In this document: in pieces, positions 3,151 to 21,688 of the stretch
How positions within the stretch are numbered: the stretch's first letter is position 1
Layout of the letters: each line of letters starts with the position of its first letter
Source: Erythrobacter donghaensis
GTDB taxonomy: Bacteria; Pseudomonadota; Alphaproteobacteria; Sphingomonadales; Sphingomonadaceae
Assembly (NCBI RefSeq): GCF_002155425.1
Contig: NZ_MUYG01000010.1
Span: 1 to 64,000, forward strand
Reading direction: 5' to 3'
DNA: 64,000 nt
Notes under the pieces: generated by a model
What the model saw: only the letters and a program-made list of their open reading frames with translations
Databases searched by the model: none
What the model was told of the DNA's origin: nothing
Position numbers and translations under genes: made by a program

Positions 3151-5208
3151 ATGACTGATCCCCCTGCCCGCACAAAATCGCGCCTTAGCTGGGCGGCGCG
3201 TAGTTGGCGCAACCTGCGCGAGGCAGGCACGGTCCAGCTGGGCCTTACCGTCATGCTCGTTTGCGTGGCGCTGTTCATCGCGCGCTACAGCTGGGTACTG
3301 CCCGGCGGAACGGTGGCGACCCCGCTCACCAGCGAGGCCGAGCGCGCCTTCTACGACCTCAGGGCCTATTACGCCGCCGATCTGGTCGAGGAAGATCAGC
3401 GGGTGGTGCTGGTGGTCTATACCGACCAGACGCTGATCAAGGCGCGCAAACGCTCGCCGCTCGACCGGGGCTTGCTGGCCGAAGCGCTGCGCACGCTCGA
3501 CGCGATGGAGCCCAAGGCGATCGGGATCGACATCCTGTTCGATCAGCCGCAGGACGAGGATGACGAACTGATCGCCGCGCTGCGGGGCATGAAAACGCCC
3601 GTCGCGGTCGCCTATGCCGCCACCGCGACCAATCCCGACGACATCGAATACGAACAGCAGCAGTATCTCGAACAGTTCCTGGCGCGGCTGGAGGGCAGCA
3701 AGGCGCAGCCGGCGAGCATCCGGCTCGACAACACCTTCGGCGCGACCCGGGTGTGGCCCGACATCCGCCCCGGCATCCCGCCGCTCCTCGGCCGGGTGAT
3801 GCTCGCCGAGGCGGGGGAGCCCGCCACCACCTTTGCCGGCTACGAGGGCGCGATCGACTACCGGCGGCCCAAGTTCCAGGATCAGGTGTTGTTCCCGCCC
3901 GCCCAGATCGACCTTTTCGTCGACCCCGATCCGGAAATCCTGCCCTTCCTCACGGAGCAATTTGCGGGCAAATATATCCTGATCGGCGGCGATATCGTCG
4001 ACTATGACCGGGTCGAGACGACTTTCACCTCGATCAACGGTGAAGTGCCCGCCGGAATCTCGGTCCATGCCGAGATCATCGCTCAGATGCTCGACAACCG
4101 CGTGCTCAGGCCGATTCCGGGCTGGGTGCTGTGGGCGATGGCGGTGCTGGCGATCCTCGCCGCGATTCTGACCGCGCTGCTCGAATGGCCCGCGCGGCGG
4201 CTGGCGCTGCTGGGCATCGCGCAGCTGGTGATCTTTCAGGGCTTTCCACTGCTGTTGCAGCTTCGCAATGTCGACACCTACGGATTGCCCCCGTTCGGCT
4301 GGTTCATCGGGTGGGTGATCGTCTTCGCCGCCGTCACCACCACAGCGCGCGCATCGGGCGCGGTGCAGCGCAATTTCGCCACCGGGGCGCTGGGCAAATA
4401 CATCCCGCGCGACATCGCCCAGGCGATCATCGACAAGCCCGAGCTGCTGTCGCTGGGCGGGGAAAAGCGCGCGATCTTCGTGCTGTTCAGCGATCTTGAG
4501 GGCTTCACCAAGATGAGCCACGCGATCCCGCCGGAGATGGTGGCGAAGATTCTGAACCGCTACCTCGATACGCTCAGTCAGGTGGTGCTCGACCATGGCG
4601 GCGTGATCGACAAGTTCGTCGGCGATGCGGTGGTGGCCTTCTGGGGCGCGCCGATCAGCCGGCCCGACGATGGCGCGCGCGCCGCGCGGGCGGGCTATGC
4701 GATGTGGCAGGCGGGCGAGGCTTTCCGCCGCGAGGTGGCGGCGATGGACCCGGGCCTCCCGCCGATCGGCAAGACCCGCGTGGGCCTGCATTATGGCGAA
4801 GCGGTGATCGGCAATTTCGGCGGGGCGAACCGCATCCAGTACACCGCGCTGGGCGACTCGATGAACACCGCCGCGCGGCTCGAGGCGGCGAACAAGGCTT
4901 TGGATTCGAGCGTGATGGCGAGCCGCGAATTCGCCGAGGCTTCGGGGCTGGACTGGTGGCGGGCGATGGGGCGGGTGCGACTGCGCGGGCGGGCGCGGCC
5001 GGTCGAGCTGTTCGAGCCTGCGCCCGATTTCCCCGCCGAAGACCGCGCCGCACTGGGCGAGGCGAGTGTGTTGTCCGTCACCGACCGTGCTGCGGCAATG
5101 CGGCTAGTGAAAGGCGTGGCCGGGCGCCATCCCGATGATTCGGCGCTCGGCAATCTGGTACAGCGAATGCAGCAATTGGACGACGGAGGAACCTATGTTC
5201 TTGGCTAA
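3151..5208 (+). CDS. CHASE2-domain class III adenylate cyclase
   Basis: 685 residues. One N-terminal membrane helix (about 28-48) precedes a periplasmic CHASE2 sensor (about 50-310). Three membrane helices follow (about 322-400), then a cytoplasmic class III nucleotidyl cyclase domain (about 435-640). Metal-binding aspartates are Asp448 (FSDLEGF) and Asp492 (VGDAVVAFWG). The Lys in VIDKFVGD, the Thr-bearing YTALGD stretch and the Asn/Arg in NTAARLE fit an adenylate rather than guanylate cyclase. I chose the ATG at 3151 because the longer frame would run back inside the CHAT gene. The likely role is to make cAMP in response to an extracytoplasmic signal. The 3' end overlaps the next gene by 14 bases. 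A cAMP-phosphodiesterase-like gene and a cNMP-binding oxidoreductase lie within 17 kb. Confidence 0.92.
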   Translation: MTDPPARTKSRLSWAARSWRNLREAGTVQLGLTVMLVCVALFIARYSWVLPGGTVATPLTSEAERAFYDLRAYYAADLVEEDQRVVLVVYTDQTLIKARKRSPLDRGLLAEALRTLDAMEPKAIGIDILFDQPQDEDDELIAALRGMKTPVAVAYAATATNPDDIEYEQQQYLEQFLARLEGSKAQPASIRLDNTFGATRVWPDIRPGIPPLLGRVMLAEAGEPATTFAGYEGAIDYRRPKFQDQVLFPPAQIDLFVDPDPEILPFLTEQFAGKYILIGGDIVDYDRVETTFTSINGEVPAGISVHAEIIAQMLDNRVLRPIPGWVLWAMAVLAILAAILTALLEWPARRLALLGIAQLVIFQGFPLLLQLRNVDTYGLPPFGWFIGWVIVFAAVTTTARASGAVQRNFATGALGKYIPRDIAQAIIDKPELLSLGGEKRAIFVLFSDLEGFTKMSHAIPPEMVAKILNRYLDTLSQVVLDHGGVIDKFVGDAVVAFWGAPISRPDDGARAARAGYAMWQAGEAFRREVAAMDPGLPPIGKTRVGLHYGEAVIGNFGGANRIQYTALGDSMNTAARLEAANKALDSSVMASREFAEASGLDWWRAMGRVRLRGRARPVELFEPAPDFPAEDRAALGEASVLSVTDRAAAMRLVKGVAGRHPDDSALGNLVQRMQQLDDGGTYVLG

Positions 5209-5941
5209 GACGACGAAGCGGCTGGCACGGTTTGCGATCACGGCGGCGGCGCTGGCGCTGCCGGTAGCGGCCATGGCGGGGGTGGTGGTGAAGTCCACCG
5301 GGCCTTCCTCGAGCAAATTCCCGGTCGGCACCAAGCTTGATGACAATGCCACGATCACGCTCAAGGGCGGGGACGTGGTGACCGTGCTGACGGCAGAGGG
5401 CACCCGCGTCATCAAGGGCGCAGGCACCTTCCGCGTGGGCGACCGCCCGCAGGTCGCCGCCGACCGCTTCGCCTCCCTCACCCGCAAGCGCGCCGCCACC
5501 CGCGTGCGCACCGGGGCCGTGCGCGGCGAGAACGATGCGACCGTCACTAACCCCAGCCTGTGGTACACCGACGTCACCCGCTCGGGCACGATCTGCCTCT
5601 ATGACCTCGCCACGGTGCGCCTGTGGCGGCCCGGCACGCTGGGCATCAGCACCTACCGGATCGCCGATCATGAGGGCGCGAGCCAGTCCGAAGTGACCTT
5701 CGACGACATCTACAATGTCGCCACCATCGACCCGGCGCGCCTGCCGATCACCGAAGGCGGGCACTACATGATCTCCGCCCCCGATGGCACCGTGACCGCC
5801 GAAGTCACCTTCGTATCGCTGGGCGAGGATTACGCCGCGCCCGATGCCCTTGCCGAGGCGCTGATCGCCAAGGGCTGCACCGTCCAGCTCGAAGCGCTCG
5901 CCTCCAGCCTCGAAGCCTCGGCCGAGGCGGGCGGCGATTGA
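5195..5941 (+). CDS. FecR-like exported protein
   Basis: 248 residues with a clear signal peptide (KRLARFAITAAALALPVAAMA), so periplasmic or exported. The early part (about 30-90) has the beta-rich FecR-type pattern seen in proteins that follow CHASE2 cyclases: short strands around KFPVGTKLDDNATITLKGGD and VIKGAGTFRVG. The remainder (about 100-245) has two cysteines, and the C-terminus is Ala/Glu rich. No anti-sigma transmembrane helix is present, so it is not a classical FecR. The start is set by an AGGAGG-like site 8 bases upstream, and it overlaps the cyclase stop by 14 bases, implying translational coupling. It may act as the extracytoplasmic partner or cargo of the CHAT/CHASE2 proteins. 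Family assignment is moderate; function is unknown. Confidence 0.7.
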   Translation: MFLAKTTKRLARFAITAAALALPVAAMAGVVVKSTGPSSSKFPVGTKLDDNATITLKGGDVVTVLTAEGTRVIKGAGTFRVGDRPQVAADRFASLTRKRAATRVRTGAVRGENDATVTNPSLWYTDVTRSGTICLYDLATVRLWRPGTLGISTYRIADHEGASQSEVTFDDIYNVATIDPARLPITEGGHYMISAPDGTVTAEVTFVSLGEDYAAPDALAEALIAKGCTVQLEALASSLEASAEAGGD

Positions 5942-6122
5942 CGTGATTGGCGGTTGCATCCCGCCGCGACAATTGGGACAAGAGGTGCGGGGCTGGCCAA
6001 CGGGAGGACTCGGCCCCACGCTGCAGGCAGGCTGACGCAGCGTTACAAGCATCGCGCGGGGGCGCGGTGCTAGCATGGGCTGCCGGTCCGGTATCGGCAG
6101 CGCACATCTCGGGGGGGATGGG

Positions 6123-7508
6123 ATGACGGGACATTGGGTGGAGGCCATCGCACAGCGGGCACTGCGACCCGTGGCGCTTCGCGTCGCCGCCGTGCTGGCG
6201 CTGGCCGCGCTCTACCCCGTCTCGACCGCGATCGGAAACGGAACCTATGAAGGCGTGGCGAGCTGCGCGGGTTCGACCTGCCATGGCCGGGCTGAGGGCA
6301 ATGGCGCGGTGGTGCGGCAGGACGAAATCGCCACCTGGCAGGAGCCGTCCTCGCCCTCCGGTGCCCATTCCCGCGCCTATGCCGTGCTCGGCGGGCGGCG
6401 CGGCCAGCAGATCGCGGCGAGCCTCGGGCTCGGCAATGCGCAGAGCGCGCCCGCCTGCCTCGGCTGCCATGCGACCAATGCGCCGCAGGGCCAGCGCGGG
6501 GCGAAGTTTACGCTGACCGACGGCGTGGGCTGCGAAAGCTGTCACGGAGCGAGCGGCGGCACCTGGCTTGCCGAACATTACGCGCTGCCTGCCACTCACG
6601 CCTCCAACGTCGCAGCGGGGCTGACGCCGCTCGACAATCCACGCGCGCGGGCGAATGTGTGCCTGGATTGCCATTACGGATCGAGCAAGCCGGGGCAGTT
6701 CGTCACCCATGCAATGATGGCGGCGGGGCATCCGCGCGTGTCTTTCGAGCTCGACCTGTTCAGCGCATTGCAGCAGCACCATCAGATCGATGGCGATTAC
6801 ACCGCGAGGAAAGGCGTGCCCGATGGCGTGCGGCTGTGGGCGGTGGGGCAGGCCGAGGCGGTGCGCCGCTCGACCAGCCTCTTCGCCCAGCCGCGCTTCG
6901 CCTATGAGGGCGCGTTTCCGCAGTTCTACTTCCTCGATTGCCATTCGTGCCACCGCACCATCACCGACGGGCCGCAGCGCAAGCTGACTTTCGAGACCAA
7001 CCCCGGCCGCCCGATCCCCTTCGGCAACCCGCCCTTCAATGATGAGAACATCATCATGCTCTCCGCCGTGGCGGGCGCGCTGGTGCCGGGCGAGGCCGAG
7101 GCCTTCCGCACCGCCGCGCGCGATTTCCACAAGGCGATGGGGGCCGGGCCGGAGCAGACGCGCGCCGCCGCGCAGGCGCTTTCGGGCCGCGCGGGCGCGC
7201 TGTCGGAAGCGCTTTCGGGCCGGGCCTATGGCAATGCCGACGCCTTCCGTGTCATCGCGATCATCGCGGGCGAGGCGACCGCCCCACGTTTCACCGACTA
7301 CGCCGGATCGGTGCAGGCGGTGATGGCGATCGACACGCTGCTCAATGCGCTGGTGCGCGAAGGCCGGGTGACGCAGGGCGCCGCCGCCGGGATCAGGGGC
7401 GATATCGCCCGCGCCTACAAGGCGGTGGAGGAGCCCAATGCCTACCGCCCTTCCGCTTTTCGCGCCGCGCTGAAATCGGCGGCGGGCGCGATCGGCAGGC
7501 TGCAATAG
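6123..7508 (+). CDS. Exported pentaheme c-type cytochrome (cytochrome c554-like)
   Basis: 461 residues with an N-terminal hydrophobic segment (about 20-36) acting as signal peptide. Haem-attachment motifs are C112-LGC-H, C137-ESC-H, C180-LDC-H and C273-HSC-H, all CX2CH, plus an unusual CX4CH at 48-54 (CAGSTCH). Several isolated histidines, as in QQHHQ and NYHK-like contexts, could be distal ligands. This is the arrangement of the cytochrome c554 family: a periplasmic multihaem electron carrier. An in-frame ATG also exists at 6075, but the one at 6123 lies just after a G-rich tract that could serve as ribosome-binding site. The next gene begins two bases after the stop. It is likely the periplasmic shuttle of the redox locus. 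Confidence 0.85.
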   Translation: MTGHWVEAIAQRALRPVALRVAAVLALAALYPVSTAIGNGTYEGVASCAGSTCHGRAEGNGAVVRQDEIATWQEPSSPSGAHSRAYAVLGGRRGQQIAASLGLGNAQSAPACLGCHATNAPQGQRGAKFTLTDGVGCESCHGASGGTWLAEHYALPATHASNVAAGLTPLDNPRARANVCLDCHYGSSKPGQFVTHAMMAAGHPRVSFELDLFSALQQHHQIDGDYTARKGVPDGVRLWAVGQAEAVRRSTSLFAQPRFAYEGAFPQFYFLDCHSCHRTITDGPQRKLTFETNPGRPIPFGNPPFNDENIIMLSAVAGALVPGEAEAFRTAARDFHKAMGAGPEQTRAAAQALSGRAGALSEALSGRAYGNADAFRVIAIIAGEATAPRFTDYAGSVQAVMAIDTLLNALVREGRVTQGAAAGIRGDIARAYKAVEEPNAYRPSAFRAALKSAAGAIGRLQ

Positions 7509-7510
7509 GG

Positions 7511-9469
7511 ATGCGCCGGGGGGGAACATTCTGGATTGCGGCGAGCGCGCTGGTTCTCGCCTCCTGCGGGGGTGGGGGGAGCGGCTCGGGCAGTCCCGGT
7601 GGCGGCACCGGAGGCGGTGGGCCAACCCCGACGCCCACACCGCCGCCTGCCGGACAGGTGTTCAGCGTCCCTGCCGCCGAGAGCCTGTCTTCCGCCGAGG
7701 TCGGCACAGTCGTCGCGCAGGCTGCTGCCGAGGCGCGGGCGCGCGGGGCGGCGGCGACGATCGCGGTCACTGACCGGGTCGGCAATATCCTCGCCGTCTT
7801 CGCCATGCCCGGCGCTGCCCCGCTGGCCCGCATCCCCGCCGCACCCGATGGCACCGCGCGCGATGTGCAGGGGCTCGATGTGCCGAGCGCCGGGGCCGCC
7901 ATCGCCAAGGCGATCACGGGCGCCTATCTGTCGAGCGGCGGCAATGCCTTCTCCAGCCGCACCGCCAGCATGATCGTACAGGAGCACTTCCCGCCCGCAC
8001 CGACCACCGCGGGGCTCGAAAGCGGCCCGCTGTTCGGGGTGCAGTTCAGCCAGCTGCCCTGTTCCGATCTCGCCGCCCGCGCGAGCGACGGGCTGATCGG
8101 GCCGAAGCGCTCGCCGCTCGGCCTCGCGGCGGACCCGGGGGGTTTCCCGCTCTACAAGAACGGCGTCGTGGTCGGCGGGGTGGGGGTGATCGCCGACGGG
8201 GTCTACGGGCTCGACACCAATGTGCTCGATCGCGACAATGACGTGGATGAGGCCATCGCGCTCGCCGGGACGCTGGGGTTCGAAGCGCCGGTCAGCATCC
8301 GCGCCAACCGCATCACCGCTGATGGCACGAGCCTGCGCTACACCGACATCGACTATAATCAGCTCACCGCCGCCCCCGGCGCAAGCTTCGCCGCCACCGC
8401 AGGCGCGCTGGTGCCGGTGATCGGCTATTACAGCGGCGCGGGGCCGCAGGCGGGGAGCGCCTATGGCACCGAGGCCTCGGGCATCCGCGCCTCGACCGCC
8501 GCGGAGTTCGCCAACCGCGACGCCTTCGTGCTGTCGAACGGGGCAGGCGCGAACCGCTTCCCGGTGCGCAGCGGCACCGATGCGGGCGACATCGCCGCCC
8601 CGCTGACGGCGGCCGAGGCGCGCGCGATCCTCGAGGAAGCCTTTACCGTGATGAGCCGCGCGCGCGCGCAAATCCGCCAGCCATTGGACAGCCGCGCGCA
8701 GGTGACGATCAGCCTCGTCGATACGCGGGGGGCCGTGCTCGGCCTCGTCCGCTCCCCCGATGCTCCGATCTTCGGAATCGACGTGAGCCTGCAGAAGGCG
8801 CGCACCGCCAATTTCTTCTCCGCGCCTTTCGCTGCCGCCGAGCTTTCAGCAGCGGGCGGCGAAGTGCCCGAATTCGTCACCCGCGCCCGCGCGTTTCTCG
8901 GCGATCCCAATGCGCTGACGGGGGCCTTCGCCTTTTCCGACCGGGCGGGGGGCAACCTGTCGCGGCCCTATTTTCCCGATGGCGAGGTGGGCCGCCCCAA
9001 TGGCCCGCTGTCGCGCCCGATCGCGCAGTTCAACCCCTTCTCGACCGGGCTGCAATCGGCGCTGGTGCTGGGCAATCTCGGCCAGCATCTCGCCTTCGTC
9101 ACCGGGCAGAGCGCGGCGGACACCCCGCGCGCCTGCACCAGCCTGCCGGGCGCGGGGGGCGGCAATCCCCGGCTGGCGAACGGCATCCAGATCTTTCCGG
9201 GATCGGTCCCGGTCTATCGCGGCGGGCAGCTGGTGGGCGGCATCGGCGTGTCGGGCGACGGGATCGATCAGGACGACATGATCAGCTTCCTCGGCCTCCA
9301 CAATGCCGGCGTCCGGCTGGGCGGCGGGCTGGGCAATGCGCCCGCAGACCGCCGTGCCGACCGCATCGTGGTCGATGTCGCGGGCCGGCAGGTGCGGCTG
9401 CGCTACGTCAATTGCCCCTTCGCGCCGTTCCTCGACACGGCGGCGCAAAACGTGTGCGAGGGGCTGTAG
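7511..9469 (+). CDS. Lipoprotein with two GlcG/HbpS (DUF336)-like haem-binding domains
   Basis: 652 residues. The start has a lipobox, LVLAS followed by Cys19, then a Gly-rich and Thr-Pro linker (20-48), so it is a lipid-anchored, surface- or periplasm-facing protein. Two related halves follow. Each begins with the GlcG/HbpS pattern of an A/V-x-D-x-x-G-x-x-L/V strand (TDRVGNILAVF near 88 and VDTRGAVLGLVR near 405). Each ends with a GG(I/V)GV-S/I-GDG-type motif (GGVGVIADG near 222 and GGIGVSGDG near 580). HbpS-type domains bind haem or small organic molecules. Cysteines at about 183, 541 and 636 could form disulfides. The gene sits between two cytochrome genes and the next gene starts on the following base. 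The specific role is inferred: a haem or redox accessory subunit. Confidence 0.75.
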   Translation: MRRGGTFWIAASALVLASCGGGGSGSGSPGGGTGGGGPTPTPTPPPAGQVFSVPAAESLSSAEVGTVVAQAAAEARARGAAATIAVTDRVGNILAVFAMPGAAPLARIPAAPDGTARDVQGLDVPSAGAAIAKAITGAYLSSGGNAFSSRTASMIVQEHFPPAPTTAGLESGPLFGVQFSQLPCSDLAARASDGLIGPKRSPLGLAADPGGFPLYKNGVVVGGVGVIADGVYGLDTNVLDRDNDVDEAIALAGTLGFEAPVSIRANRITADGTSLRYTDIDYNQLTAAPGASFAATAGALVPVIGYYSGAGPQAGSAYGTEASGIRASTAAEFANRDAFVLSNGAGANRFPVRSGTDAGDIAAPLTAAEARAILEEAFTVMSRARAQIRQPLDSRAQVTISLVDTRGAVLGLVRSPDAPIFGIDVSLQKARTANFFSAPFAAAELSAAGGEVPEFVTRARAFLGDPNALTGAFAFSDRAGGNLSRPYFPDGEVGRPNGPLSRPIAQFNPFSTGLQSALVLGNLGQHLAFVTGQSAADTPRACTSLPGAGGGNPRLANGIQIFPGSVPVYRGGQLVGGIGVSGDGIDQDDMISFLGLHNAGVRLGGGLGNAPADRRADRIVVDVAGRQVRLRYVNCPFAPFLDTAAQNVCEGL

Positions 9470-11332
9470 ATGGGCCCGCTGCTCCCCGTGCTGCTGCTGC
9501 TTCAGGGCGCTCCGCCCGATGAGGTGTCCCCGCCCCCCCCGCCGCCGCCGGGTGAGGAAACGCCGCCCCCCGCACAGGATTGGGAGCAGGACACGCCCCC
9601 CGTCGATCCCGCCATCATCGAAGGCCGCCAGCGCCCCGGCTACACCGCGCCGCTGCCCGAGCGGATCGAGCAGCGCAACGAAGGTGCTGTGCGCGCGCCG
9701 CCGCCCGAAGCCTTCCCGACCGATCAGCTCCCCATCCCCGACCGCTGGCGGCTGATCGAGAGCCTCGGTCTGGTGAAGGAAAACCTGTTCGATCCCTATA
9801 ACCAGAACACCTACAAGGGCGACCGCCCGATCAACCGCGCCAAGGTGCCATGGCTGCCGATCACGGGGGACGACTGGTTCTTCGTCGCCAACCTCGTCAG
9901 CGACACAGTCTACGAACCGCGCACCTTCCCGATACCTGTCGGCGTGCAGACCACCGAAGATCCCGACCGCAACGACGTGTTCGGGAACGATTTCAGCCAG
10001 GTTTTCAGCCAGACCTTCATCGCCGGTTTCGCTCTGCTGAAGGGTTCGACCACCTTCAAGCCGCCCACGATCGAATACCGCGTCACGCTGGCCTACAACG
10101 TCAACTATGTCGACGTGCCCGAGCGCCGGGTGCTGTTCGTGGAGCCCTCGCGCGACAGCGAGCGGCTCGACCATTTCCTCGGCGTGCAGGAAGCTTTCGT
10201 AGATTACCACTTCAGCCAGTTCGACACAGACCGCTTCGACTTCATCTCGATCCGTGTCGGCATCCAGCCGTTCCAGTCGGACTTCCGCGGCTTCCTGTTC
10301 AACGACCAGCAATTGGGCATCCGCCTGTTCGGATCGCGCGACAACAACCGCTTCCAGTTCAACCTCGGCGCCTTCTGGCGGCTGGAGAAGGACACCAATT
10401 CGGGCCTCAACTCGGTGGTGAAGAGCCCGCGCGATGACTTTGTTTTTGTTGCCAATGCCTATCGGCAGGACTTCCTGATCCCGGCGCTCACCAGCCAGTT
10501 CACCGTGGTCTACAACATGAACCGCGAGGCCGACGATATCGAGATCGACGACAACGGTTTCCCGGTGCGCCCGGCCTTGCTCGGCACGCTGAGGGGCCGC
10601 GAATATGACGTGGTCTATCTGGGCTACAACGCCGACGGGCGGGTCGGGCGGGTCAATCTGACAGGTTCGTTCTATTGGGCGCTGGGCGAGGACCGAAACA
10701 GCTTCTTCACCGACCGTCCGGCCAACATCAACGCGCAGTTCGCCGCGCTGGAAGCGAGCTACGACCGCGACTGGATGCGCTTCCGCCTTTCCGCCGCCTA
10801 TGCCAGCGGGGACAGCGACCCCTATGACGACACTGAAGGCGGGTTCGACGCGATCTTCGAAAACCCGGTCTTTGCGGGCGCGGACACCTCCTACTGGATC
10901 CGTCAGACCATCCCCTTTGCGGGCGGCGGCCGCGCGGTGGCGGTGAACGGGCGCAACGGCATCCTCAATTCGCTGCGCTCCTCGAAGGAGCAGGGGCAGA
11001 GCAATTTCAACAATCCGGGGCTGATGCTGGTGGGGGTGGGCGCGGATTTCGACCTGACGCCGCAGCTGCGCCTGTCGGCCAATGCCAACCACCTTTGGTT
11101 CGAGAACACCGCGACGCTTCAGGTGCTGCGCAACGAAGGCTCGATCCCGCGCGAGATCGGCTTCGACCTTTCCGCCGCGGCGATCTGGCGGCCCAAGGCG
11201 AACCAGAACCTCGTCTTCCGCCTTTCCGCCGCAGCGCTGGTGGCGGGCGACGGATTTCAGGACCTGTTTGCGACCCGCGGCGGCGGGCAGGAATTCGTCT
11301 CGATCCTCGCCAATGTGGTGCTGACCTACTGA
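9470..11332 (+). CDS. Outer-membrane beta-barrel protein of the cytochrome locus
   Basis: 620 residues. A short hydrophobic leader (residues 3-12) is followed by a strongly proline-rich stretch (about 18-45). From about 115 onward the sequence alternates aromatic and polar residues in many amphipathic strands and ends in a terminal aromatic residue (VVLTY), typical of outer-membrane barrels. It has no haem motif and no TonB box or plug pattern. The gene starts directly after the lipoprotein stop, and its TGA overlaps the ATG of the decaheme cytochrome gene. By analogy with porin-cytochrome conduits such as MtrB with MtrA/MtrC, it could hold a cytochrome across the outer membrane. I see no sequence identity to MtrB, so this is inference from context and architecture. 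Confidence 0.7.
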   Translation: MGPLLPVLLLLQGAPPDEVSPPPPPPPGEETPPPAQDWEQDTPPVDPAIIEGRQRPGYTAPLPERIEQRNEGAVRAPPPEAFPTDQLPIPDRWRLIESLGLVKENLFDPYNQNTYKGDRPINRAKVPWLPITGDDWFFVANLVSDTVYEPRTFPIPVGVQTTEDPDRNDVFGNDFSQVFSQTFIAGFALLKGSTTFKPPTIEYRVTLAYNVNYVDVPERRVLFVEPSRDSERLDHFLGVQEAFVDYHFSQFDTDRFDFISIRVGIQPFQSDFRGFLFNDQQLGIRLFGSRDNNRFQFNLGAFWRLEKDTNSGLNSVVKSPRDDFVFVANAYRQDFLIPALTSQFTVVYNMNREADDIEIDDNGFPVRPALLGTLRGREYDVVYLGYNADGRVGRVNLTGSFYWALGEDRNSFFTDRPANINAQFAALEASYDRDWMRFRLSAAYASGDSDPYDDTEGGFDAIFENPVFAGADTSYWIRQTIPFAGGGRAVAVNGRNGILNSLRSSKEQGQSNFNNPGLMLVGVGADFDLTPQLRLSANANHLWFENTATLQVLRNEGSIPREIGFDLSAAAIWRPKANQNLVFRLSAAALVAGDGFQDLFATRGGGQEFVSILANVVLTY

Positions 11333-14300: not shown

Positions 14301-15414
14301 CGCCAACAAGGGCACCTCGGAACGCATCCTCAAGGGCCCGTTCTCCCCGCTGGGGCATGACACCAATGTGAAGACCAGCAACGCGACCTGCATGGCGCTG
14401 CCCACCAACCAGCCCATCGCGCCGACCCGCTCGACGCCCGAAATGCGCGAGCTCAATCAGGAGCAGGCCTTTCTGCCGATCTACAACTACGCTGTTGTCA
14501 CCGACAGCGAGGAGGGGCTGATCCTCGTCAACGTCAACACGCTGGCGGACGGGGAATTCCGCAACAACAAGCTGACCCGCAAGGTCTTCGCCGATGGTTC
14601 GACCGCGTGGAACCCGGACGGCGTGCTCACCGGCGCGCGGCATATCGTGCTGGCGGGCGAGGTCGCCTACATCACCGCTGCACGCGGGCTGGTGGTGGTC
14701 GATCTCGCCGATCCCGACCGGCCGAGGCTGGCGGCGGTGCGGCCCCTGCGCGATGCGCGGGCGAGCGCGGTGCAGTTCCGCTATCTGTGGGTGACGGATG
14801 CGGAAGGGGTGAAGCTGTTCGACGTCACCGCCTTGCGCGATCCGGTCGCATTGCCCGAAGGCACCGTGCCACTCGCGGACGCGCGGCGCATGTATATCGC
14901 GCGGACCTATGCCTATGTCGCCGCCAAGGGTGAGGGTCTGGTGATCCTCGACGTGAAGAACCCGCGCAGCCCGCGCGTCTTCCAGAAGGTGACGCTGGAC
15001 GGGGCGCTGAACGATGCCGAGGACGTCATCGTCGGCACCACCAATGCCTCGCTGTTCGCCTATGTCGCGGACGGACGCAATGGGATGAAGGTGCTGCAAC
15101 TCACCAGTCCCGACAGCCAGCGCAATTTCTACGGCTTCAGCCCCGCGCCGGTGCCCGAGCTGATCGCTTGGGCGAAGACGCCGTCGCCCGCCATTGCGCT
15201 CAGCAAAGGCCTCGACCGCGACCGTGCGGTGGACGAGACCGGGGGGCAGATGGCGGTGTTCGGGCGATTGGGCTCGCGGCCCTTTACGCGGGCGGAGATG
15301 GAGCGCCTGTTCATGACCCGCTCGGGCGTGCCGTGGAAGGTGAGCGACGAGATCGACATGCAGCGCTGGGTGGGCCTTCCGCCGGCCCAAAGGCAAAGGG
15401 CGGCGCGGAAGTAG
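11332..15414 (+). CDS. Decaheme c-type cytochrome fused to an LVIVD-repeat beta-propeller
   Basis: 1360 residues with a signal peptide (about 1-36, ending near TPQAA). Ten CX2CH motifs start at residues 67, 89, 167, 343, 435, 586, 613, 732, 743 and 849. From about 960 to 1265 there are at least five LVIVD-type blades, for example YMFVAEGKGGFTAYD, VAYITAARGLVVVDL and YAYVAAKGEGLVILDV, forming a predicted beta-propeller. LVIVD propellers are typical of secreted or surface proteins. The ATG overlaps the barrel gene stop (TGATG), implying tight coupling. It is likely the terminal haem protein of the conduit, periplasmic or surface-exposed, with the propeller for docking or substrate contact. The start at 11332 is preferred because the longer frame runs through the barrel gene. 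Confidence 0.88.
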   Translation: MRALTHPFARHIALLAAALVLAIGLFAGTPQAADKEKPVKRDYSAVFAPPAPQRQSVAEMDAKSEGCLTCHTKSDAPTMHLTPAVRLGCTDCHGGNAKVRGDSELPHDHPDYVAARDAAHVLPKYPNSWHFPSSANPKRSYALLNKESPEFVKFVNPSDYRVAREACGSCHIQAIEAAERSIMATGAMLWGGASYNNGILPYKNYLLGEAYTREGLPAKLTSPGAGPGGTLSPHQVARGVLAEMYPLPTWHVIPPGDVFRVFERGGRTINSQFPEIGLPNPSGAIQRLEEPGRPDLKQSNRGPGTGLRVAIPALNIHKTRLNDPFTWFMGTNDQPGDYRHSGCASCHVVYANDREPRHSLTYAQFGRDGQTMTLDPTIAGKVEHEEKAHGHGAVKQPGHEDHSDDGALRTASGEVKEKGHPLTHVFTRAIPTAQCMNCHMHQPNIFLNSFLGYTMWDYESDAPFMWPEKQKYPTAEEVRAVTDRNPEGAAPKGKWADLDFLRNVYDLNPKLKDTQFADYHGHGWNFRAIFKRDREGNLLDADGKVVDPDDPEKWRKEGEGKFVEPGTNPGKAVHLMDIHAEKGMQCADCHFEQDSHGNGLIYGEVANAIEITCKDCHGTPDAYPTLRTSGPAAPPEGHDLALLRNPDGKRRFEWLEGADGRRRLVQRSIVDPSLEWEMSLVKDSVDPATPVFNAKAARAKLMSRYGAETGSFEFGTGIAADDRAHRDPEMACHTCHLSWTTSCGGCHLPIEANWKTKSHRYEGDETRNFATYNPQVARDEMFQLGKSQTTKGNQIAPVRSSSALVLSSTNINRERIYVQQPPISAIGFSSQAFAPHFPHTVRLTETKTCTDCHLSAKDDNNAIMAQLLLLGTNYVNFVGLNAWTGLEGGFQATRVTEYDEPQAVIGSYLQRYAYPDYWKLHVEQNDRELKNWVRGQTFDENLSGETKAFEEFANVHEGTSDRVGCLQLRGEYMFVAEGKGGFTAYDVASIANKGTSERILKGPFSPLGHDTNVKTSNATCMALPTNQPIAPTRSTPEMRELNQEQAFLPIYNYAVVTDSEEGLILVNVNTLADGEFRNNKLTRKVFADGSTAWNPDGVLTGARHIVLAGEVAYITAARGLVVVDLADPDRPRLAAVRPLRDARASAVQFRYLWVTDAEGVKLFDVTALRDPVALPEGTVPLADARRMYIARTYAYVAAKGEGLVILDVKNPRSPRVFQKVTLDGALNDAEDVIVGTTNASLFAYVADGRNGMKVLQLTSPDSQRNFYGFSPAPVPELIAWAKTPSPAIALSKGLDRDRAVDETGGQMAVFGRLGSRPFTRAEMERLFMTRSGVPWKVSDEIDMQRWVGLPPAQRQRAARK

Positions 15415-15423
15415 AACTCCAAT

Positions 15424-15576: not shown

Positions 15577-15591
15577 GGGCGGGGGGAACCC

Positions 15592-16473
15592 CTACTCTCT
15601 TTCCGCAAACATGCCCTTGATCATCTGTTGCAGCCCGGCGTGGAAGTGCGCCAGCACCTGCCAGTCGCCGACGCGTTCGTAGTGCGAGACCAGCGCCGTC
15701 CCATCCCAGCGGTGCAGTGCATAGGTCGGCTGTTCGGTGGTGATGAGCGCGCGATTATCGGGCACGTCCTTGTTGATCGGATTGAGATCCATCGCCACCA
15801 GCGGCGCGACCGAGGGGGTGACGCCGAGCGGTATGCCGGCAAAGCGCGTTGTGATCGGACGGTGGAGGTGCCCGCAATGGATCGCCTGAACCTGATGCTG
15901 ACCCTCCAGCACGTCGCGCAGCCTGACGATCCATGGCTCGTCCGGGGCGGGATCCATCCAGTCGATCCCGGCAACCACCGGGGGGTGATGCATGAAGATC
16001 AGCGTCGGCGTGTCCGGCGCCTCGGCCAGTCGGTCGGCCAGCCACGCGGCGCGCGCTGCGCAGAAGGCCCCGCCGTGGCGGCCATCCTCGAGCGTGTCGA
16101 GACAGATGATCCTGAGGCCCAGCGGTGCCTCGACCACATAGTGCAGAAAGCCGCCCTCGGCCGGGACGACCTGCGGGAAGGCCCCCAGCAGCCCGGCGCG
16201 GCTGTCGTGATTGCCGACCAGCGGCAGGATCGGGCAAGGGCAGTCGGCCAGCAGCGCGGCGGTCTTGGCGAAGCTTTCCGCATCGCCATGATCGGTGATG
16301 TCGCCAGAAAGCACCAGCATGTCCGGGCGATTGGGCCCCTCCAGCAGCCGGGCCAGCGTGGCGCGGAAGCGGATGAGGTTCAGCTCCTCGGGCTGCTCGT
16401 CAGGGGCAAAGCCCACGTGAATGTCGGTCATCTGCGCGATCAGCACCGCGCCGCCCGAAGACACTGCGTTCAT
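15592..16473 (-). CDS. CpdA-like metallophosphoesterase (putative cAMP phosphodiesterase)
   Basis: 293 residues with the full calcineurin-like metal set: Asp17 and His19 (TDIHVG), Asp58 (GDITDHG), Asn88-His89 (GNHD), His162 (MHHPP) and His202/His204 (GHLH). Length and motif spacing match CpdA/Icc 3',5'-cyclic-nucleotide phosphodiesterases. No signal peptide, so cytoplasmic. Its ATG overlaps the stop of the FHA-decaheme gene by four bases (ATGA), making it the last gene of that operon. A cyclic-nucleotide hydrolase co-transcribed with a cNMP-binding oxidoreductase would reset a cAMP signal. Substrate is inferred from family and context; other phosphoesters are possible. Confidence 0.85.
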   Translation of the reverse strand: MNAVSSGGAVLIAQMTDIHVGFAPDEQPEELNLIRFRATLARLLEGPNRPDMLVLSGDITDHGDAESFAKTAALLADCPCPILPLVGNHDSRAGLLGAFPQVVPAEGGFLHYVVEAPLGLRIICLDTLEDGRHGGAFCAARAAWLADRLAEAPDTPTLIFMHHPPVVAGIDWMDPAPDEPWIVRLRDVLEGQHQVQAIHCGHLHRPITTRFAGIPLGVTPSVAPLVAMDLNPINKDVPDNRALITTEQPTYALHRWDGTALVSHYERVGDWQVLAHFHAGLQQMIKGMFAERE

Positions 16474-18275
16474 GGTCTGGCCTTTGCGAGCTTGGCCGCG
16501 GCTGACTCCGACGTCGGCGGAGGCGGGGGCGGCTTGTAGTGGGGCGGTGCGCCCTTGGCGGACCACTGTCCGGCGGGCAGGTGATAGGCGTGGCACATCG
16601 CGCAGTCGCTCGGCACGATCTTCGCGGTCTTCACCGCGCTCGCGCCGAGGTGGCAGGTGCGGCAGGACTTCAGATCGGGCATAAGCAGATCGCTCGCCGC
16701 CTTGGAGGTCTCGGCGGCGTGGCAATCGCTGCATTTCTGCTTTGTGTGCGCTTCATGGTTGAAGAAGCTGGAGGTGAGGAAGCGGTCGGGCAGGTTGACG
16801 GGGACGAGATCGGCCTGCCCCGTCGGCCCGCGGGTGGGCAGGTGGCATTCGGTGCACACCCCGCCGGGGCCGAGCGCGTTCGACAGCCCGATATAGGCGC
16901 GGACCGGACGGCCAAAGTCCGCGCGATAGGGCGAGGCGCTGCCGATCTGGCCGGGCCGCTGGCGCGCAGGGCCGGCCGCCACGCGGGGGCGCGGGCCGCT
17001 GCTGATCCGCGCCAGATCCTCGGCCAGATCCTTCACATCGCCGTGGCGCAGCTTGCTGAAGCCGCCCACCGCTGTGCGCCCCGAGACGAGGCTGTGGCAC
17101 CCCTCGCACGCGTCCTCCATCTTCACCTCCCGGAACGACATGCGGTCCGGGGTGAGGACGTGGCAATCCTTGCAATCGAGGGGCTTGCCATATTGCCCGA
17201 GGCTGACCGCCATGCGCGCCGCTCCGCCGGTCCGGCTCATGTGGACATCGTGCGGGAACTTGAGGCCGCTGCGCTCGATCGGGCGGGTACCGGGGGCCGC
17301 GCGCACGGGCCCCGCCGCGCCGAAGCTGGCGTAATAGATCGGGCGCAGTTGCGGGTGGGCCTTGCCGAAATCATGCGCATTGGCGAGGTCGGTGTCGGTC
17401 AGGCGGGTATCGAGCTTCTCGTGACAATCGCCGCAAAAGGCCTCGCTGCCCGCCTGCGTGCGCACCGGGCCCTCGTGCTCGGAATGGCAGGCGACGCATC
17501 CGAGCGGGCCTTCCTTGCCGAGGCTCTCGCCAATCCGCCATTGCAGTGCATCGCCGGGGGAGAGCGGCGGGCTGCCCTTGGCGAGGCGCGGGCGCGCGGC
17601 GTGTTCGCCGATGTCCTTGTGGCAACTGACGCAGGTCTCGTCCTGCACGCTTTCGAAGGCGGCGACATGGCAGCTTTCGCAATTGTCGGCGAGGGTGTGG
17701 TGCTTCGAAGAAAGCTCCCCGCTCGACCACGCGCTGTCGAGCAGCACGGTGCCGGGGGTCTTGCCGGTGGGGTCAGGCTTGGCCGGGGTGCGCAGCAGGT
17801 GGCTCGTCACCGGGATGGCGAGCAGCAGCAGCAGGATCGCGCTGGAGAAGACCCAGCTCATCGCCCGCTTCGACGGCAGCACGCTGGCGAGCGCGAAGCC
17901 GCGCAACGCGTCGGTCTTGCCCTCCTCGGCGACGACTTGCCGGATCGTGATGCTGGTGGAGCCGTCACTCTCACGCGCCACCGCCAGACGCGCTGCGCCC
18001 AGCGCGATCTCGCCTCCGGTGCGCGGGTCGATGACGCCTTCGGTGACGACCCGCCCGTCGAGCCCGAAGCCGAGCGTGCCGAGCGCCTCTACCGAAAGCG
18101 TGCCGTCGGCGCGGGTGTCGATCCGCACATGGCGCTGCTCGACCGCGAGATCGGGCAGGTGAATGTCGTTCTCCGCCGCACGGCCGATGGTGAGGCTGGC
18201 CTGCTCCGCCACCCGGTCGCGCACGATCTCGCGCCCGGTGGCGGTGAAATCGATGGTGCGGATCAGGAATGCCAT
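16470..18275 (-). CDS. FHA-domain, membrane-anchored decaheme cytochrome
   Basis: 601 residues. A cytoplasmic FHA-like domain (about 25-105, GRAAENDIHLPD) is followed by a membrane helix (about 139-160) and a periplasmic region with ten CX2CH motifs (first at 199, 215, 260 and 281; the last are CSDCH, CRTCH and CAMCH). The FHA loop reads VEQRHV where canonical domains have S-R-x-H, so the phosphothreonine-contacting Ser and Arg are replaced and phosphopeptide binding is doubtful. The cytochrome part resembles cytochrome c3/c7-type multihaem chains. The start is six bases after the membrane cytochrome b gene. It probably moves electrons from the inner membrane into the periplasm. Coupling of an FHA domain to a multihaem chain is unusual. 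Confidence 0.88.
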   Translation of the reverse strand: MAFLIRTIDFTATGREIVRDRVAEQASLTIGRAAENDIHLPDLAVEQRHVRIDTRADGTLSVEALGTLGFGLDGRVVTEGVIDPRTGGEIALGAARLAVARESDGSTSITIRQVVAEEGKTDALRGFALASVLPSKRAMSWVFSSAILLLLLAIPVTSHLLRTPAKPDPTGKTPGTVLLDSAWSSGELSSKHHTLADNCESCHVAAFESVQDETCVSCHKDIGEHAARPRLAKGSPPLSPGDALQWRIGESLGKEGPLGCVACHSEHEGPVRTQAGSEAFCGDCHEKLDTRLTDTDLANAHDFGKAHPQLRPIYYASFGAAGPVRAAPGTRPIERSGLKFPHDVHMSRTGGAARMAVSLGQYGKPLDCKDCHVLTPDRMSFREVKMEDACEGCHSLVSGRTAVGGFSKLRHGDVKDLAEDLARISSGPRPRVAAGPARQRPGQIGSASPYRADFGRPVRAYIGLSNALGPGGVCTECHLPTRGPTGQADLVPVNLPDRFLTSSFFNHEAHTKQKCSDCHAAETSKAASDLLMPDLKSCRTCHLGASAVKTAKIVPSDCAMCHAYHLPAGQWSAKGAPPHYKPPPPPPTSESAAAKLAKARP

Positions 18276-18281
18276 CGCCGC

Positions 18282-19151
18282 CTACCAGTAGTAGAACACT
18301 GAGATGACATGCGCGGTCAGCGCGGCGATCAGGGCGATGGTGAGGGGGATGTGGACGAACAGCCACACCTCCAGCAGCGCGCGGATGCGCAGCTGCCCGC
18401 GAATTTGGTCGAGCTGGGCGAGACGCTTCTCCAGAAGAGGATAAACTCGCTCCATGCCCGGTTCATCGTCTTCAAGCTCTGTCAGAGCGTAGTGGGTTCG
18501 ACAGCTACCGTAAAAGTTGCCTGTGAGCCGACCGATCACGCCTAGCGAAAACGGGTCCTGATTCATTGCCGCAATCACCAAATCCGCATCCTCGCGCCCC
18601 AGCGGCTGCGCGGCGCTTTCGAGCTGGCGATCGATCGCAGTCAGCGCGTCCAGCATCTGCGCGCGGGTCATCTCCTTGCGGTTGGCGCTAAGGCTGGCGG
18701 GGAGGGTGGCGTAGACCGCCACGCCATAAATCCCCGTCGCGATCACCAGCAGCATCAGCACATAGGCGAGCGTGTGGACGTTCCAGCCGATCTGGAAGCC
18801 GGTGTGCAGCGTGCCGATCACGATCAGCGACAGGCCGAGATAGACATGGGCGCTGGTCCACGCCTTGAGGCTCCACGCACCCGGATTGATCCGCCGCTTC
18901 CTCACGCCCAGCAAGGACAGCCACAGGATCAGCAGCACACCGATGGTGCCGAGCGTATAGCCATACCACGTCCCGCCATTGGGGCGCGGCTGCTGGTCGA
19001 TCATCAGATAGCCCGCAATCGCCGCGCCCGAGAGCAGCAGCGCGATCCACAGCCAGCGGAAGCTGCGGTGCTTGAGAAAACTGACATGATCGGAATCGCG
19101 CCGCTTCTCGTCCTGCGTGAACCGCCCTGTGCCCCCCGCTTTCGTCGCCAT
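18282..19151 (-). CDS. Membrane b-type cytochrome-like protein
   Basis: 289 residues with about five membrane helices (about 33-52, 65-82, 99-118, 124-147 and 260-285). There is a charged central segment (about 155-255). Histidines within or near helices (His102, His116, His126, His267, His281) are suitable b-haem ligands. It carries no CXXCH. I do not recognise a named family; cytochrome b561-like or DsrM/NarI-like quinone-reactive subunits are the closest idea. Its ATG overlaps by one base the stop of the FAD-cNMP-ferredoxin gene, and the FHA-decaheme gene follows after six bases. It is likely the inner-membrane link between the cytoplasmic oxidoreductase or quinone pool and the periplasmic haem chain (inference). 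Confidence 0.7.
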   Translation of the reverse strand: MATKAGGTGRFTQDEKRRDSDHVSFLKHRSFRWLWIALLLSGAAIAGYLMIDQQPRPNGGTWYGYTLGTIGVLLILWLSLLGVRKRRINPGAWSLKAWTSAHVYLGLSLIVIGTLHTGFQIGWNVHTLAYVLMLLVIATGIYGVAVYATLPASLSANRKEMTRAQMLDALTAIDRQLESAAQPLGREDADLVIAAMNQDPFSLGVIGRLTGNFYGSCRTHYALTELEDDEPGMERVYPLLEKRLAQLDQIRGQLRIRALLEVWLFVHIPLTIALIAALTAHVISVFYYW

Positions 19152-21688
19152 CACTCGACGTCCTCGGTCAGCTTGGTGAAGGTCAGGAACTTGTCGGGGC
19201 TGACGCGGATCGCCGCGCCGGTCGGGCAGGCGCGCACGCAGGCCGGGCCGCCGTCGATGCCGGAGCACATGTCGCACTTGATCGCCTGCTTGGCCTTGGC
19301 CGCGCCCTCCTTCTCAGCCGCCTTCTTGCGCCACGAGTAGGACGCCTCGCCAGGCCCCGGCCCCTTGCCGAACAGCATCCATTGGAGCAGGCTGGGCTTC
19401 TTGGGCGGCTTGGCGTCCATCCGGATCACGCCGTAGGGGCAGTTGCGCTGGCAATTGCCGCAGCCGATGCAGGTCTCGTCGATGAAGACCTCGCCGTCGG
19501 GCCCGCGCTTGATTGCATTGGGTGGGCAGTCGGCCATGCAATGCGGGTGCTCGCAGTGGCGGCAGGATGTGGGCACGTGGAGGTGCGCGTAGGTCTTGCC
19601 CGCCTCGCGGTCGAGCCGCGAGAGCCCGTCATGGCTGTCCGCGCAAGCCTTTTCGCAATTGTCGCAGCCGATGCACAGCTTCTCGTCGATCAGGAGCACG
19701 TCGGTCGCCTCGCCGATGCCGTTGTCGACGAGGAACTGCGCGGTCTGCGAATACATGTCGACGACGCTGGAAAAGCTGTCCTTCTGCCCTTCGATAAAGG
19801 CATTGGTGGCGCGGCGCCCGGCCATGTCCTTCATCGCGCGTTCGCGCAGCGCCGGGTTCTTTTCCAGCAGATCGAGGAAGCCTTCGCCCGGCAGGCGGAT
19901 CACTTCTGCTTTGATCGCAGCCTTGACCGTCGCGGTGCGTGCGCTCCCGTCAATCACCGCCATTTCGCCGAAATAGCTCCCGGCAGGCAGGTAGGAGAGA
20001 AACACCGGGCGCTCGCCGATCTGCTTTTCGACGATCATCGACCCGCGCCGGATGATGAACACGTCCTTGTCGTCCGCGCCCTCGGTGACGACCACTTCGC
20101 CCGCGCGCTTTTCCTGAACCTGCGCGGCCTCGACCAGCGGAGCGACATCTTCGCGGGTGAGGCCCGATCCGAACATCTGCAGCAATTGCCGCTCGATCGA
20201 GATGCGCTGGATCGCCGCCTTGGCGGATGGCACCTGTGATTGCAGCTTCAACGCGGCAAGGCGCGAGATTTCGACCACGATGGTGTCTTCGGCGGCGCGG
20301 ATCGTCGCGCCGCGGCGGCGGCCCGAGATGAGCCCGACCTCGCCGAAGATCGAGCCGCTTTCGATGGGGATCGTGATCGAGGGATCGGCGGGATTGACCT
20401 CCACCGCCACCGATCCGCTGGCAATGCCGAACAGCGAGGAGCCGGGCGCGTTGCGCTCGAAAATCACTTCGCCCGCGCGGAAGAACTTCGCTTCGGAATC
20501 GAGCATGAATTCGCGCATCTGCAGCGGGTTCATGCCACCCAGGATCGACACGTTCGACCGCAGGAACTCGAGCCATTCCTCGGTGCTGCGCTGGCCCGGA
20601 AGCTCGGCGAACTTCGCCGCGATGATCGGCTCGTCTGCGGGCTTCAGATCGGTGTTGCCGTTGATGAACTCGATGACGTCGTGGCCCTGGTTCATGCAGT
20701 GCTTGATCAGCGGATAGCCCGCCAGCGCGCCGATCACGAAGATGCCGGGCGCGGTGCTCTCGAACACCGGGCTGAGGCGGGGGAAGGCGCCGCGATCCTC
20801 GCTGGTGAATTCGATCCCGCACTCTTCCACGAAAGCGCGTGGCGGGGCGGAGCCGATGCGGGCGATGATGCGGTCGCAGAGGATGCGGATTTCGCCGTCG
20901 CGGGTGGTGAGGGTGATGAAGCCCGGCTCGATCGCCTTGGTCTCGCTTTCGGTGCGGACCATCAGCTTGCCCGCCTCGTGATCGGCCATCAGGGCGCTGA
21001 CATTCGCCGCTTTGGCGGTCGGGAATTCGGTGCCGCGATTGAGGATCGAGACGGTGTTGCGCTGCGCCGGGTCTTCGGCGAGGCCGCGCGCGTTCTCGAT
21101 CCCTGCGTCCCCGGTGCCGACGATGACGATATGCTCGTCGACATATTCGGTGGGATCGTCGAGCTGATACTGCACATGCGGCAGGTCGGCGCCGGGGCAG
21201 CGCATCCGGTTGGGATTGCCCTGCGTGCCGATGGCGAGGATGACGTTTTCGGCCATCACCACCTCGCCATTGGTCAGCTCGATTGCATAGGGCGGGGCGT
21301 GGCGCTGCACTTCCTTGACGCTCTTGGTGCCATCGCGCGCGCGGGTTACGATCTGCTGCATCGAGCCGGGGATCGGATCGCCCGTGCCGCGGATCGCCTT
21401 GGCCTCGGCCATGTATTTGACGTTGACCTTGTGGCCCGCGATCTGCTCGTCCCACGTCCCGAGGATCGCCTCGCGCTTGCCCGCGTCGAAGTCGATGTCG
21501 CTGCGAAGCACCAGATTGCTGGGCGTCGCCATGACATGCTTGCCCTTCTGGTACTTGTAGATCGTGTCGGAGAGGTGATCGGTCTTTTCGAGCAGCACAT
21601 GGCTCAGCCCCAGCGCGGCGGCGCGTGCTGCGGCGCTGAGCCCGGCAGGCCCTGATCCGATAATGGCGACCTTGAACGTCTCGCCCAC
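19151..21688 (-). CDS. FAD oxidoreductase fused to two cNMP-binding domains and a 4Fe-4S ferredoxin module
   Basis: 845 residues from a GTG start with a GGGGAGG-like site just upstream. Residues 1-340: a thioredoxin-reductase-like flavoprotein with dinucleotide motifs GSGPAG (11-16) and GTGDAG (191-196) but no redox CXXC, so not a disulfide reductase. Residues about 390-505 and 510-630: two CRP-type cyclic-nucleotide-binding domains. Both keep the Glu (FGEVGL near 450, FGEMAV near 575) and Arg of the phosphate-binding cassette. Residues 670-845: four cysteine clusters (CIGCDNC, CRHCEHPHC, CIGCGNC, CDMC...CVRAC), enough for about four 4Fe-4S centres, as in DmsB/HybA-type subunits. Probably a cytoplasmic NAD(P)H-to-FeS electron-entry subunit gated by cAMP (inference). 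Confidence 0.9.
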   Translation of the reverse strand: MGETFKVAIIGSGPAGLSAAARAAALGLSHVLLEKTDHLSDTIYKYQKGKHVMATPSNLVLRSDIDFDAGKREAILGTWDEQIAGHKVNVKYMAEAKAIRGTGDPIPGSMQQIVTRARDGTKSVKEVQRHAPPYAIELTNGEVVMAENVILAIGTQGNPNRMRCPGADLPHVQYQLDDPTEYVDEHIVIVGTGDAGIENARGLAEDPAQRNTVSILNRGTEFPTAKAANVSALMADHEAGKLMVRTESETKAIEPGFITLTTRDGEIRILCDRIIARIGSAPPRAFVEECGIEFTSEDRGAFPRLSPVFESTAPGIFVIGALAGYPLIKHCMNQGHDVIEFINGNTDLKPADEPIIAAKFAELPGQRSTEEWLEFLRSNVSILGGMNPLQMREFMLDSEAKFFRAGEVIFERNAPGSSLFGIASGSVAVEVNPADPSITIPIESGSIFGEVGLISGRRRGATIRAAEDTIVVEISRLAALKLQSQVPSAKAAIQRISIERQLLQMFGSGLTREDVAPLVEAAQVQEKRAGEVVVTEGADDKDVFIIRRGSMIVEKQIGERPVFLSYLPAGSYFGEMAVIDGSARTATVKAAIKAEVIRLPGEGFLDLLEKNPALRERAMKDMAGRRATNAFIEGQKDSFSSVVDMYSQTAQFLVDNGIGEATDVLLIDEKLCIGCDNCEKACADSHDGLSRLDREAGKTYAHLHVPTSCRHCEHPHCMADCPPNAIKRGPDGEVFIDETCIGCGNCQRNCPYGVIRMDAKPPKKPSLLQWMLFGKGPGPGEASYSWRKKAAEKEGAAKAKQAIKCDMCSGIDGGPACVRACPTGAAIRVSPDKFLTFTKLTEDVE

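Follow-up and report, generated by a model that had tools for sequence, protein, structure and literature searches.

The described system closest to the locus reported here is the putative porin–cytochrome complex PCC4, which in the main text of He et al. (2017; PMC5566968) consists of a porin together with three multi-haem cytochromes of the periplasm that have 4, 5 and 10 haem sites. As that text describes it, the PCC4 inner-membrane protein has five helices, two WX3HX13H motifs and an SGXXG motif, and the WX3HX13H signature, found in the inner-membrane proteins of both PCC3 and PCC4, was read as a sign of two b haems. In PCC4 Subgroup II a pfam13247 iron–sulfur (Fe-S) gene lies upstream of the inner-membrane gene, and in the Oceanospirillum annotation the two are a single gene. 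The published model runs electrons inward, to quinone, and comparable clusters were noted in iron-oxidizing Zetaproteobacteria and in a Hyphomicrobium; the same source gives 24–32 transmembrane regions for the MtoB and PioB barrels and 28 for MtrB (PMC5566968). Here we examine a gene cluster at positions 3151–21688 of a 64,000-nucleotide stretch of Erythrobacter donghaensis DNA (contig NZ_MUYG01000010.1, positions 1–64,000; the whole stretch is hereafter called the window), which an earlier note, made from the DNA letters, had taken for a cyclic-nucleotide-controlled electron conduit across the cell envelope. We propose that the cluster encodes a PCC4-like, NAD(P)H-fed chain of periplasmic multi-haem cytochromes under direct control of cyclic AMP (cAMP), a reading to which, on sequence evidence, we assign a probability of about 55%.

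A two-module redox gene set resembling PCC4

Open reading frames and family scans within the window recovered every gene that the earlier note had listed, namely the cyclase, the FAD/cNMP/ferredoxin protein, the phosphodiesterase, the cytochrome b, cytochromes with 5, 10 and 10 haems and the barrel, together with two that it had passed over, a secreted protein (5195–5941, plus strand) and an HbpS-like protein (7511–9469, plus strand). The redox genes fall into two convergent modules. Module 1, on the minus strand, comprises a protein with FAD, cyclic-nucleotide-binding (cNMP) and Fe-S parts (19151–21688), a membrane cytochrome b (18282–19151), a decahaem cytochrome with an FHA domain (FHA-decahaem, 16470–18275) and a metallophosphoesterase (15592–16473). 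Module 2, on the plus strand, comprises a pentahaem cytochrome (6123–7508, start approximate), the HbpS-like protein, a candidate outer-membrane barrel (9470–11332) and a large decahaem cytochrome with LVIVD repeats (LVIVD-decahaem, 11332–15414). A TPR-CHAT protein, a CHASE2-domain adenylate cyclase (3151–5208, plus strand) and the secreted protein lie upstream of module 2.

The FAD/cNMP/Fe-S protein, identified by family scan and conserved residues, would be the point at which electrons enter. In one chain it joins a YpdA/Pyr_redox-type FAD/NAD(P)H module, two cNMP-binding domains and a C terminus with four four-cysteine motifs of the [4Fe-4S] kind; all 16 of these cysteines are present in 75 of 75 sequences, and the protein matches PF13247 (E = 3.7e-10). 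The neighbouring membrane protein is a predicted dihaem, b561-like protein of the PCC3/PCC4 type. Two WX3HX13H motifs occur in all 75 sequences and in seven outgroup proteins, about five hydrophobic stretches are visible, and the [S/T]GxxG columns hold Ser in 63 sequences, Thr in 12 and both glycines in every one; its scores against b561 (E = 7.7e-7) and Ferric_reduct (E = 0.087) are below the family cut-offs. This family and motif evidence agrees with the earlier proposal that electrons pass through the inner membrane into periplasmic multi-haem cytochromes.

The pentahaem cytochrome is C554-like (Cytochrome_C554, 7.9e-12), with four CXXCH motifs and one CX4CH motif. FHA-decahaem has its FHA domain separated by a single membrane helix (residues 136–165) from a haem part with 10 CXXCH motifs. 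The FHA domain keeps its Gly in 74, Arg in 75 and His in 75 of 75 sequences and has no conserved Ser before the Arg-x-His position; because the usual FHA domain carries that Ser, phosphothreonine binding is left in doubt. LVIVD-decahaem combines a signal-like N terminus, 10 CXXCH motifs and C-terminal LVIVD repeats (PF08309, E = 5.2e-13). Sequence searches with the three cytochromes returned weak, short matches to solved structures, and a model of LVIVD-decahaem residues 36–990 (pLDDT 41.6, pTM 0.29) was unusable. We rejected selenite or tellurite reduction of the ExtM type, as the match, 52 residues long, reached 61 bits where the cut-off is 800. The two-domain HbpS-like protein matches PF03928 in two stretches (E = 1.5e-20), and the cysteine after its signal looks like that of a lipobox.

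Compared with the main text on PCC4, the redox core here is closely similar. A porin gene is clustered with multi-haem cytochrome genes; the inner-membrane protein has two WX3HX13H motifs, about five helices and [S/T]GxxG; a PF13247 gene precedes the cytochrome b gene in 74 of 74 loci, as in Subgroup II; and the two are fused in one frame in the outgroup genomes G444 and G328, recalling the single gene of Oceanospirillum. The haem sites differ, being 4, 5 and 10 in PCC4 and 5 (four CXXCH plus CX4CH), 10 and 10 here, and for this reason we call the set PCC4-like rather than filing it as a member. The claim that no described system has this combination of genes was thus overstated. What is new is the fusion of FAD and cNMP parts into the electron-entry enzyme, the association with a phosphoesterase and CHASE2 cyclases, and the breadth of the system in sphingomonads. 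The main text on PCC4 makes no mention of a cyclic nucleotide, cAMP, a cyclase, FAD, ferredoxin, a phosphoesterase, FHA, LVIVD or HbpS (PMC5566968), and our search of the non-subscription literature found no paper on the cyclic-nucleotide part of the system; the PCC4 Fe-S genes, compared here through the study's text, may carry the same extra FAD and cNMP domains.

Conserved order and co-occurrence of the gene set

Full-length relatives of the FAD protein were found in 75 of 296 Sphingomonadales genomes (78 matched; three short YpdA-like matches of 79–83 bits, belonging to other families, were left out), and relatives of LVIVD-decahaem were likewise found in 75 of the 296. When we compared the 78 system genomes other than our own, 74 from the order and 4 from outside it, the genomes with the FAD protein were those with LVIVD-decahaem, and the sole mismatch, G445, has a contig that stops just past the barrel gene. 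The two genes lie within 20 kb of each other on one contig in 43 of the 77 genomes that hold both. In the other 34 they do not, yet still co-occur; in a few of these the distance is 20–45 kb or a contig end interrupts the locus. Since the FAD protein and LVIVD-decahaem share the same genomes even when unlinked, the set is, judged by gene content, one system.

Within the loci, the order and strand of the FAD protein, cytochrome b and FHA-decahaem genes are kept in all 74 that we fetched. Module 2 falls inside the 20 kb stretch in 40 of these, with identical order every time and a convergent arrangement in 39. A CcmH/CycH-type TPR gene for cytochrome c maturation (21792–22751, plus strand, in the window; PF23914, E = 1.3e-14) lies upstream of the FAD gene and divergent from it in 54 of the 74. 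The numbers of haem motifs do not vary: 10 in FHA-decahaem (74 of 74), 10 in LVIVD-decahaem (39 of 39) and four plus one in the pentahaem cytochrome (40 of 40). Invariant haem numbers and a kept gene order argue that the set did not come together by chance, and the earlier view that these genes belong together is borne out.

Beyond the order, a phylum sample of 398 genomes gave 15 matches to the FAD profile and 11 to the decahaem profile, all 11 within those 15. The redox genes run in one direction in the outgroups G653 and G645; the order in G653 is FAD protein, cytochrome b, FHA-decahaem, pentahaem, HbpS, barrel and LVIVD-decahaem, and that in G645 is similar. Module 2 is missing in G444, in G328 and at one locus of G296, all of which carry the FAD protein, cytochrome b and FHA-decahaem genes (in G296 the contig stops shortly afterwards), and a second FAD gene of G296 has no haem partner adjoining it. 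In species-level genomes, LVIVD-decahaem matched at least 594 stretches, 593 of them relatives; the best 80 of the 594 are sphingomonads by title or proteobacterial assemblies. The hosts named include Sphingobium, Novosphingobium, Sphingomonas and Erythrobacter, and 12 Sphingobium records carry the set on large plasmids. No cyclase appears by name in the annotation of 40 kb of one such plasmid, from S. herbicidovorans.

The barrel and the direction of electron flow

The earlier note let electrons leave through the barrel. If so, barrel and decahaem would form a true trans-envelope porin–cytochrome conduit to extracellular acceptors, a reading that the conserved neighbourhood favours: pentahaem, HbpS, barrel and decahaem stand in this order in 40 of 40 loci with all four module 2 genes and again in the unlinked copies sampled (at one of which, L149, the HbpS-like gene was not found), and a comparable set was classed as a putative porin–cytochrome complex (PMC5566968). 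The barrel itself argues otherwise. A model built from 55 sequences has 18 strands and moderate confidence (pLDDT 66, pTM 0.69), and most of the chain up to about residue 119 scores below pLDDT 50. Fold searches (Foldseek and VIA-align) placed AlgE on top (E = 1.3e-16, Z up to 27.0, root-mean-square deviation of about 3 over about 360 residues), followed by Occ/OprD channels at Z 22–26. MtrB was not among the matches listed, an absence that excludes nothing.

The model thus has the fold of the 18-strand AlgE/OprD-type channels (Z 22–27), although, unlike them, the barrel is encoded beside cytochromes and its sequence matches no solved chain and no Pfam family. MtrB_PioB (PF11854) has no match across this genome, the barrel included. 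The bore of an AlgE/OprD-like barrel would be too small to house a haem wire, and we therefore read this one as most likely a substrate channel that would admit the acceptor, rather than as the sheath of a haem wire. Further differences separate the set from MtrCAB, MtoAB and PioAB, with which it shares multi-haem cytochromes encoded beside a barrel gene and fed by an inner-membrane redox protein. The modelled barrel has 18 strands against 24–32 in those systems; the cytochromes score just 17–22 bits against TIGR03508, whose cut-off is 192; and the predicted feed runs from NAD(P)H through FAD, Fe-S and haem b, whereas MtrCAB-type systems are fed by a quinol-oxidizing tetrahaem cytochrome. By eye, the cytochromes here show no lipobox, which also weighs against the conduit. 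We regard the conduit as unlikely.

A second alternative reverses the chain, with Fe(II), Mn(II) or an organic donor oxidized in the periplasm or outside and the electrons passing inward, as in the published PCC4 model and in keeping with the comparable clusters of iron oxidizers cited above. Here, however, a pyridine-nucleotide FAD module forms one chain with the Fe-S part, and for periplasmic cytochromes to reduce NAD(P)+ would presumably be an uphill reaction. The named hosts, moreover, include Sphingobium, Novosphingobium, Sphingomonas and Erythrobacter, which are mostly known as aerobic heterotrophs. Inward flow is in our judgement highly doubtful, and the fused module leads us to infer an outward flow that starts at NAD(P)H.

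A probable cyclic-nucleotide link

In the entry protein, the two cNMP domains are placed after the FAD module and before the Fe-S part. In 75 sequences the pocket residues are all but invariant: Gly in 75, Glu in 75 and Arg in 75 for the first domain, and Gly in 75, Glu in 74 and Arg in 75 for the second. We take the Glu to contact the ribose and the Arg the phosphate, as in the phosphate-binding cassette of CRP/PKA-type cNMP domains, and by sequence both domains contain this cassette. The nine PF00027 hits in this genome represent eight proteins, three of which carry a cAMP-pocket string, the FAD protein in both of its domains; among 19 PF00027 hits in five same-genus genomes without the system, none does. 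The pattern behind these counts is our own, applied to the hits alone, and one further hit in this genome (C3), which fits a loosened pattern with shorter spacing, was excluded. A cNMP domain is likewise fused to an enzyme in the mycobacterial acetyltransferase Pat (NCBIfam NF058543), which is regulated by cAMP; the analogy suggests direct control by the nucleotide rather than control via transcription. The arrangement here differs from that of Pat in having two cNMP domains inside a redox protein.

The window's cyclase is of class III. It matches CHASE2 (PF05226, E = 2.1e-24) and the catalytic domain PF00211 (E = 2.3e-12; 47.3 bits against a cut-off of 21.9), and Asp450, Lys490, Asp494 and Asp571, presumably the metal-binding aspartates and the Lys/Asp pair for adenine, are conserved in 22–23 of 24 rows. 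The window's cyclase is one of two of class III found in this genome; the other (G000, contig C7, about 288439–289547, locus L284) adjoins a cNMP protein carrying the cAMP-pocket string. Class III cyclases occur in all 78 system genomes; at least 33 of these have one no more than 15 kb from the FAD or decahaem gene, and at least 59 have one no more than 30 kb away. Random uniform placement in 3.3 Mb would give about 2.3 and about 4.1, respectively, though shared descent inflates the observed figures. In a sample of 201 genomes of the order, all 40 with the system and 32 of the 161 without it had class III cyclases, the 129 genomes without a cyclase match being counted as lacking the system because every system genome tested has one. 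The first 20 same-family genomes without the system contained no class III cyclase, which suggested that such cyclases are confined to system genomes; we discarded this exclusivity after the wider sample, in which 11 of the 32 are of the same family, and kept the enrichment. Of the 75 system genomes, 66 have an orthologue of the window's own cyclase (at least 400 bits), as do 9 of the 221 genomes that lack the system. The earlier note had expected the regulatory link to fail if cyclase and cytochrome genes rarely co-occurred; these counts run the other way.

The association also extends beyond this one cyclase. We scanned eight near-locus cyclases that are not close to the window's, and all eight have CHASE2; with the window's, the nine fall into at least five groups that share only 25–39% identity, and the association is therefore not a single inherited pair. 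The phosphoesterase, a calcineurin-like protein that is above the Metallophos cut-off and resembles SpdA and CpdA, is a candidate cyclic-nucleotide phosphodiesterase, with metal-binding motifs kept in about 70 of 72 rows. Its gene is next to that of FHA-decahaem in 71 of 74 loci. Of the three without it there, one (L061) is cut by a contig end, G105 has it beside the decahaem gene instead, and in G155 (L105) it was not seen.

The link could nevertheless be only apparent, if the cyclase belonged to a separate neighbouring cassette and the cNMP domains were structural or bound another ligand. Several points favour this alternative or otherwise weigh against our reading. The nine genomes that have a cyclase orthologue without cytochromes are mirrored by nine of the 75 system genomes in which none reaches 400 bits, and in 17 of the 78 system genomes no class III cyclase was among the matches listed within 35 kb on the same contig, six of these having none among the matches listed on the contig of either gene. 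The near-locus cyclases not orthologous to the window's were found with a profile of that cyclase, which favours CHASE2 types. Relatives of the secreted protein (5195–5941, no Pfam match, signal-like hydrophobic stretch at residues 10–36) often adjoin the cyclase, and the two may form an independent signalling cassette, sometimes with a CHAT protein. The phosphoesterase scores below the NCBIfam equivalog cut-offs (120.5 of 400 for SpdA, 69 of 225 for CpdA), and among the seven outgroup genomes it was found beside the set in G544 but in none of the other six, so that it is not essential. Shared descent inflates every co-occurrence number, and the moderate confidence of the barrel model counts against us as well.

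Set against these are the ligand-contact residues kept in both cNMP domains across 75 sequences, the different CHASE2 cyclases near the set in different lineages, a phosphoesterase that tracks the set and adjoins the decahaem gene in G105 when missing from module 1, and class III cyclases in every system genome but in only a fifth of the others (32 of 161). We consider it quite unlikely that the link is only apparent. The cyclic-nucleotide control that the earlier note proposed thus gains support from the cNMP pockets, the phosphoesterase and the cyclases, and the system is probably under such control.

In favour of a separate cassette, the cyclase and the secreted protein stand together in G141 (L157), the one genome looked at among those with a cyclase orthologue and no cytochromes, and in several system loci a CHAT protein joins them; the corresponding stretch of the window is 87–5941.

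Neighbouring genes

Just past the cluster, on the minus strand of the window, lies a BLUF blue-light sensor with a weak B12-binding/AppA-SCHIC-like match (23808–24899), followed by a glutamate-dehydrogenase-like gene, named by eye (25071–26426, minus strand). A glutamate-dehydrogenase-like protein also adjoins FHA-decahaem in G544, outside the order, and such a family was found in 5 of 22 loci that were clustered. Between 26537 and 32420 are a radical-SAM protein (HemN-like by eye), an E1-E2 cation ATPase and a FixG-like protein, which suggest a neighbourhood of low-oxygen respiration. Upstream of the pentahaem gene and on its strand, 10 of 22 loci examined have an aldehyde dehydrogenase and 8 of 22 an acetolactate-synthase-like gene (loci L240, L254, L257, L259, L262, L263, L275 and L278 are among them), and these neighbours may hint at the metabolism served. 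Neither gene was seen there in the window, whose pentahaem gene has the cyclase and secreted-protein genes as its upstream neighbours.

Proposed mechanism and meaning

In the chain that we propose, NAD(P)H would reduce the FAD module, and electrons would pass through the four [4Fe-4S] clusters to the two-haem membrane cytochrome b, and from there to the FHA-anchored periplasmic decahaem, the pentahaem carrier and LVIVD-decahaem, the likely terminal reductase, with the barrel admitting the acceptor as a substrate channel. Binding of cAMP to the cNMP pair would open or close electron entry; CHASE2-type cyclases, often encoded nearby, would make the cAMP and the phosphoesterase of the operon would remove it. 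The proposal starts from what the sequences and the barrel model show, namely the genes present and their order, their co-occurrence, the conserved ligand residues and the modelled fold; from these we infer the ligand, the direction, the gating, the order of the cytochromes and the acceptor. More tentatively, and with somewhat less than even confidence, we suggest that this is a respiratory-type chain that bypasses quinone, that the enzyme through which electrons enter it doubles as a cAMP receptor, with cAMP made and removed locally, and that gating this entry is a main role of class III cAMP signalling among sphingomonads.

With at least 593 relative stretches in species-level genomes, the system is common and not a curiosity. 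The unproven PCC4-type clusters gain a candidate electron entry point from the FAD and pyridine-nucleotide modules fused to the Fe-S protein, and doubt is raised as to whether PCC4-type barrels are electron conduits. Respiratory chains are usually controlled via transcription or substrate supply; if our proposal is true, direct switching by cAMP of the enzyme that supplies electrons to a multi-haem chain would be a new regulatory principle for respiration, and a large environmental group of bacteria would have a concrete target for cAMP.

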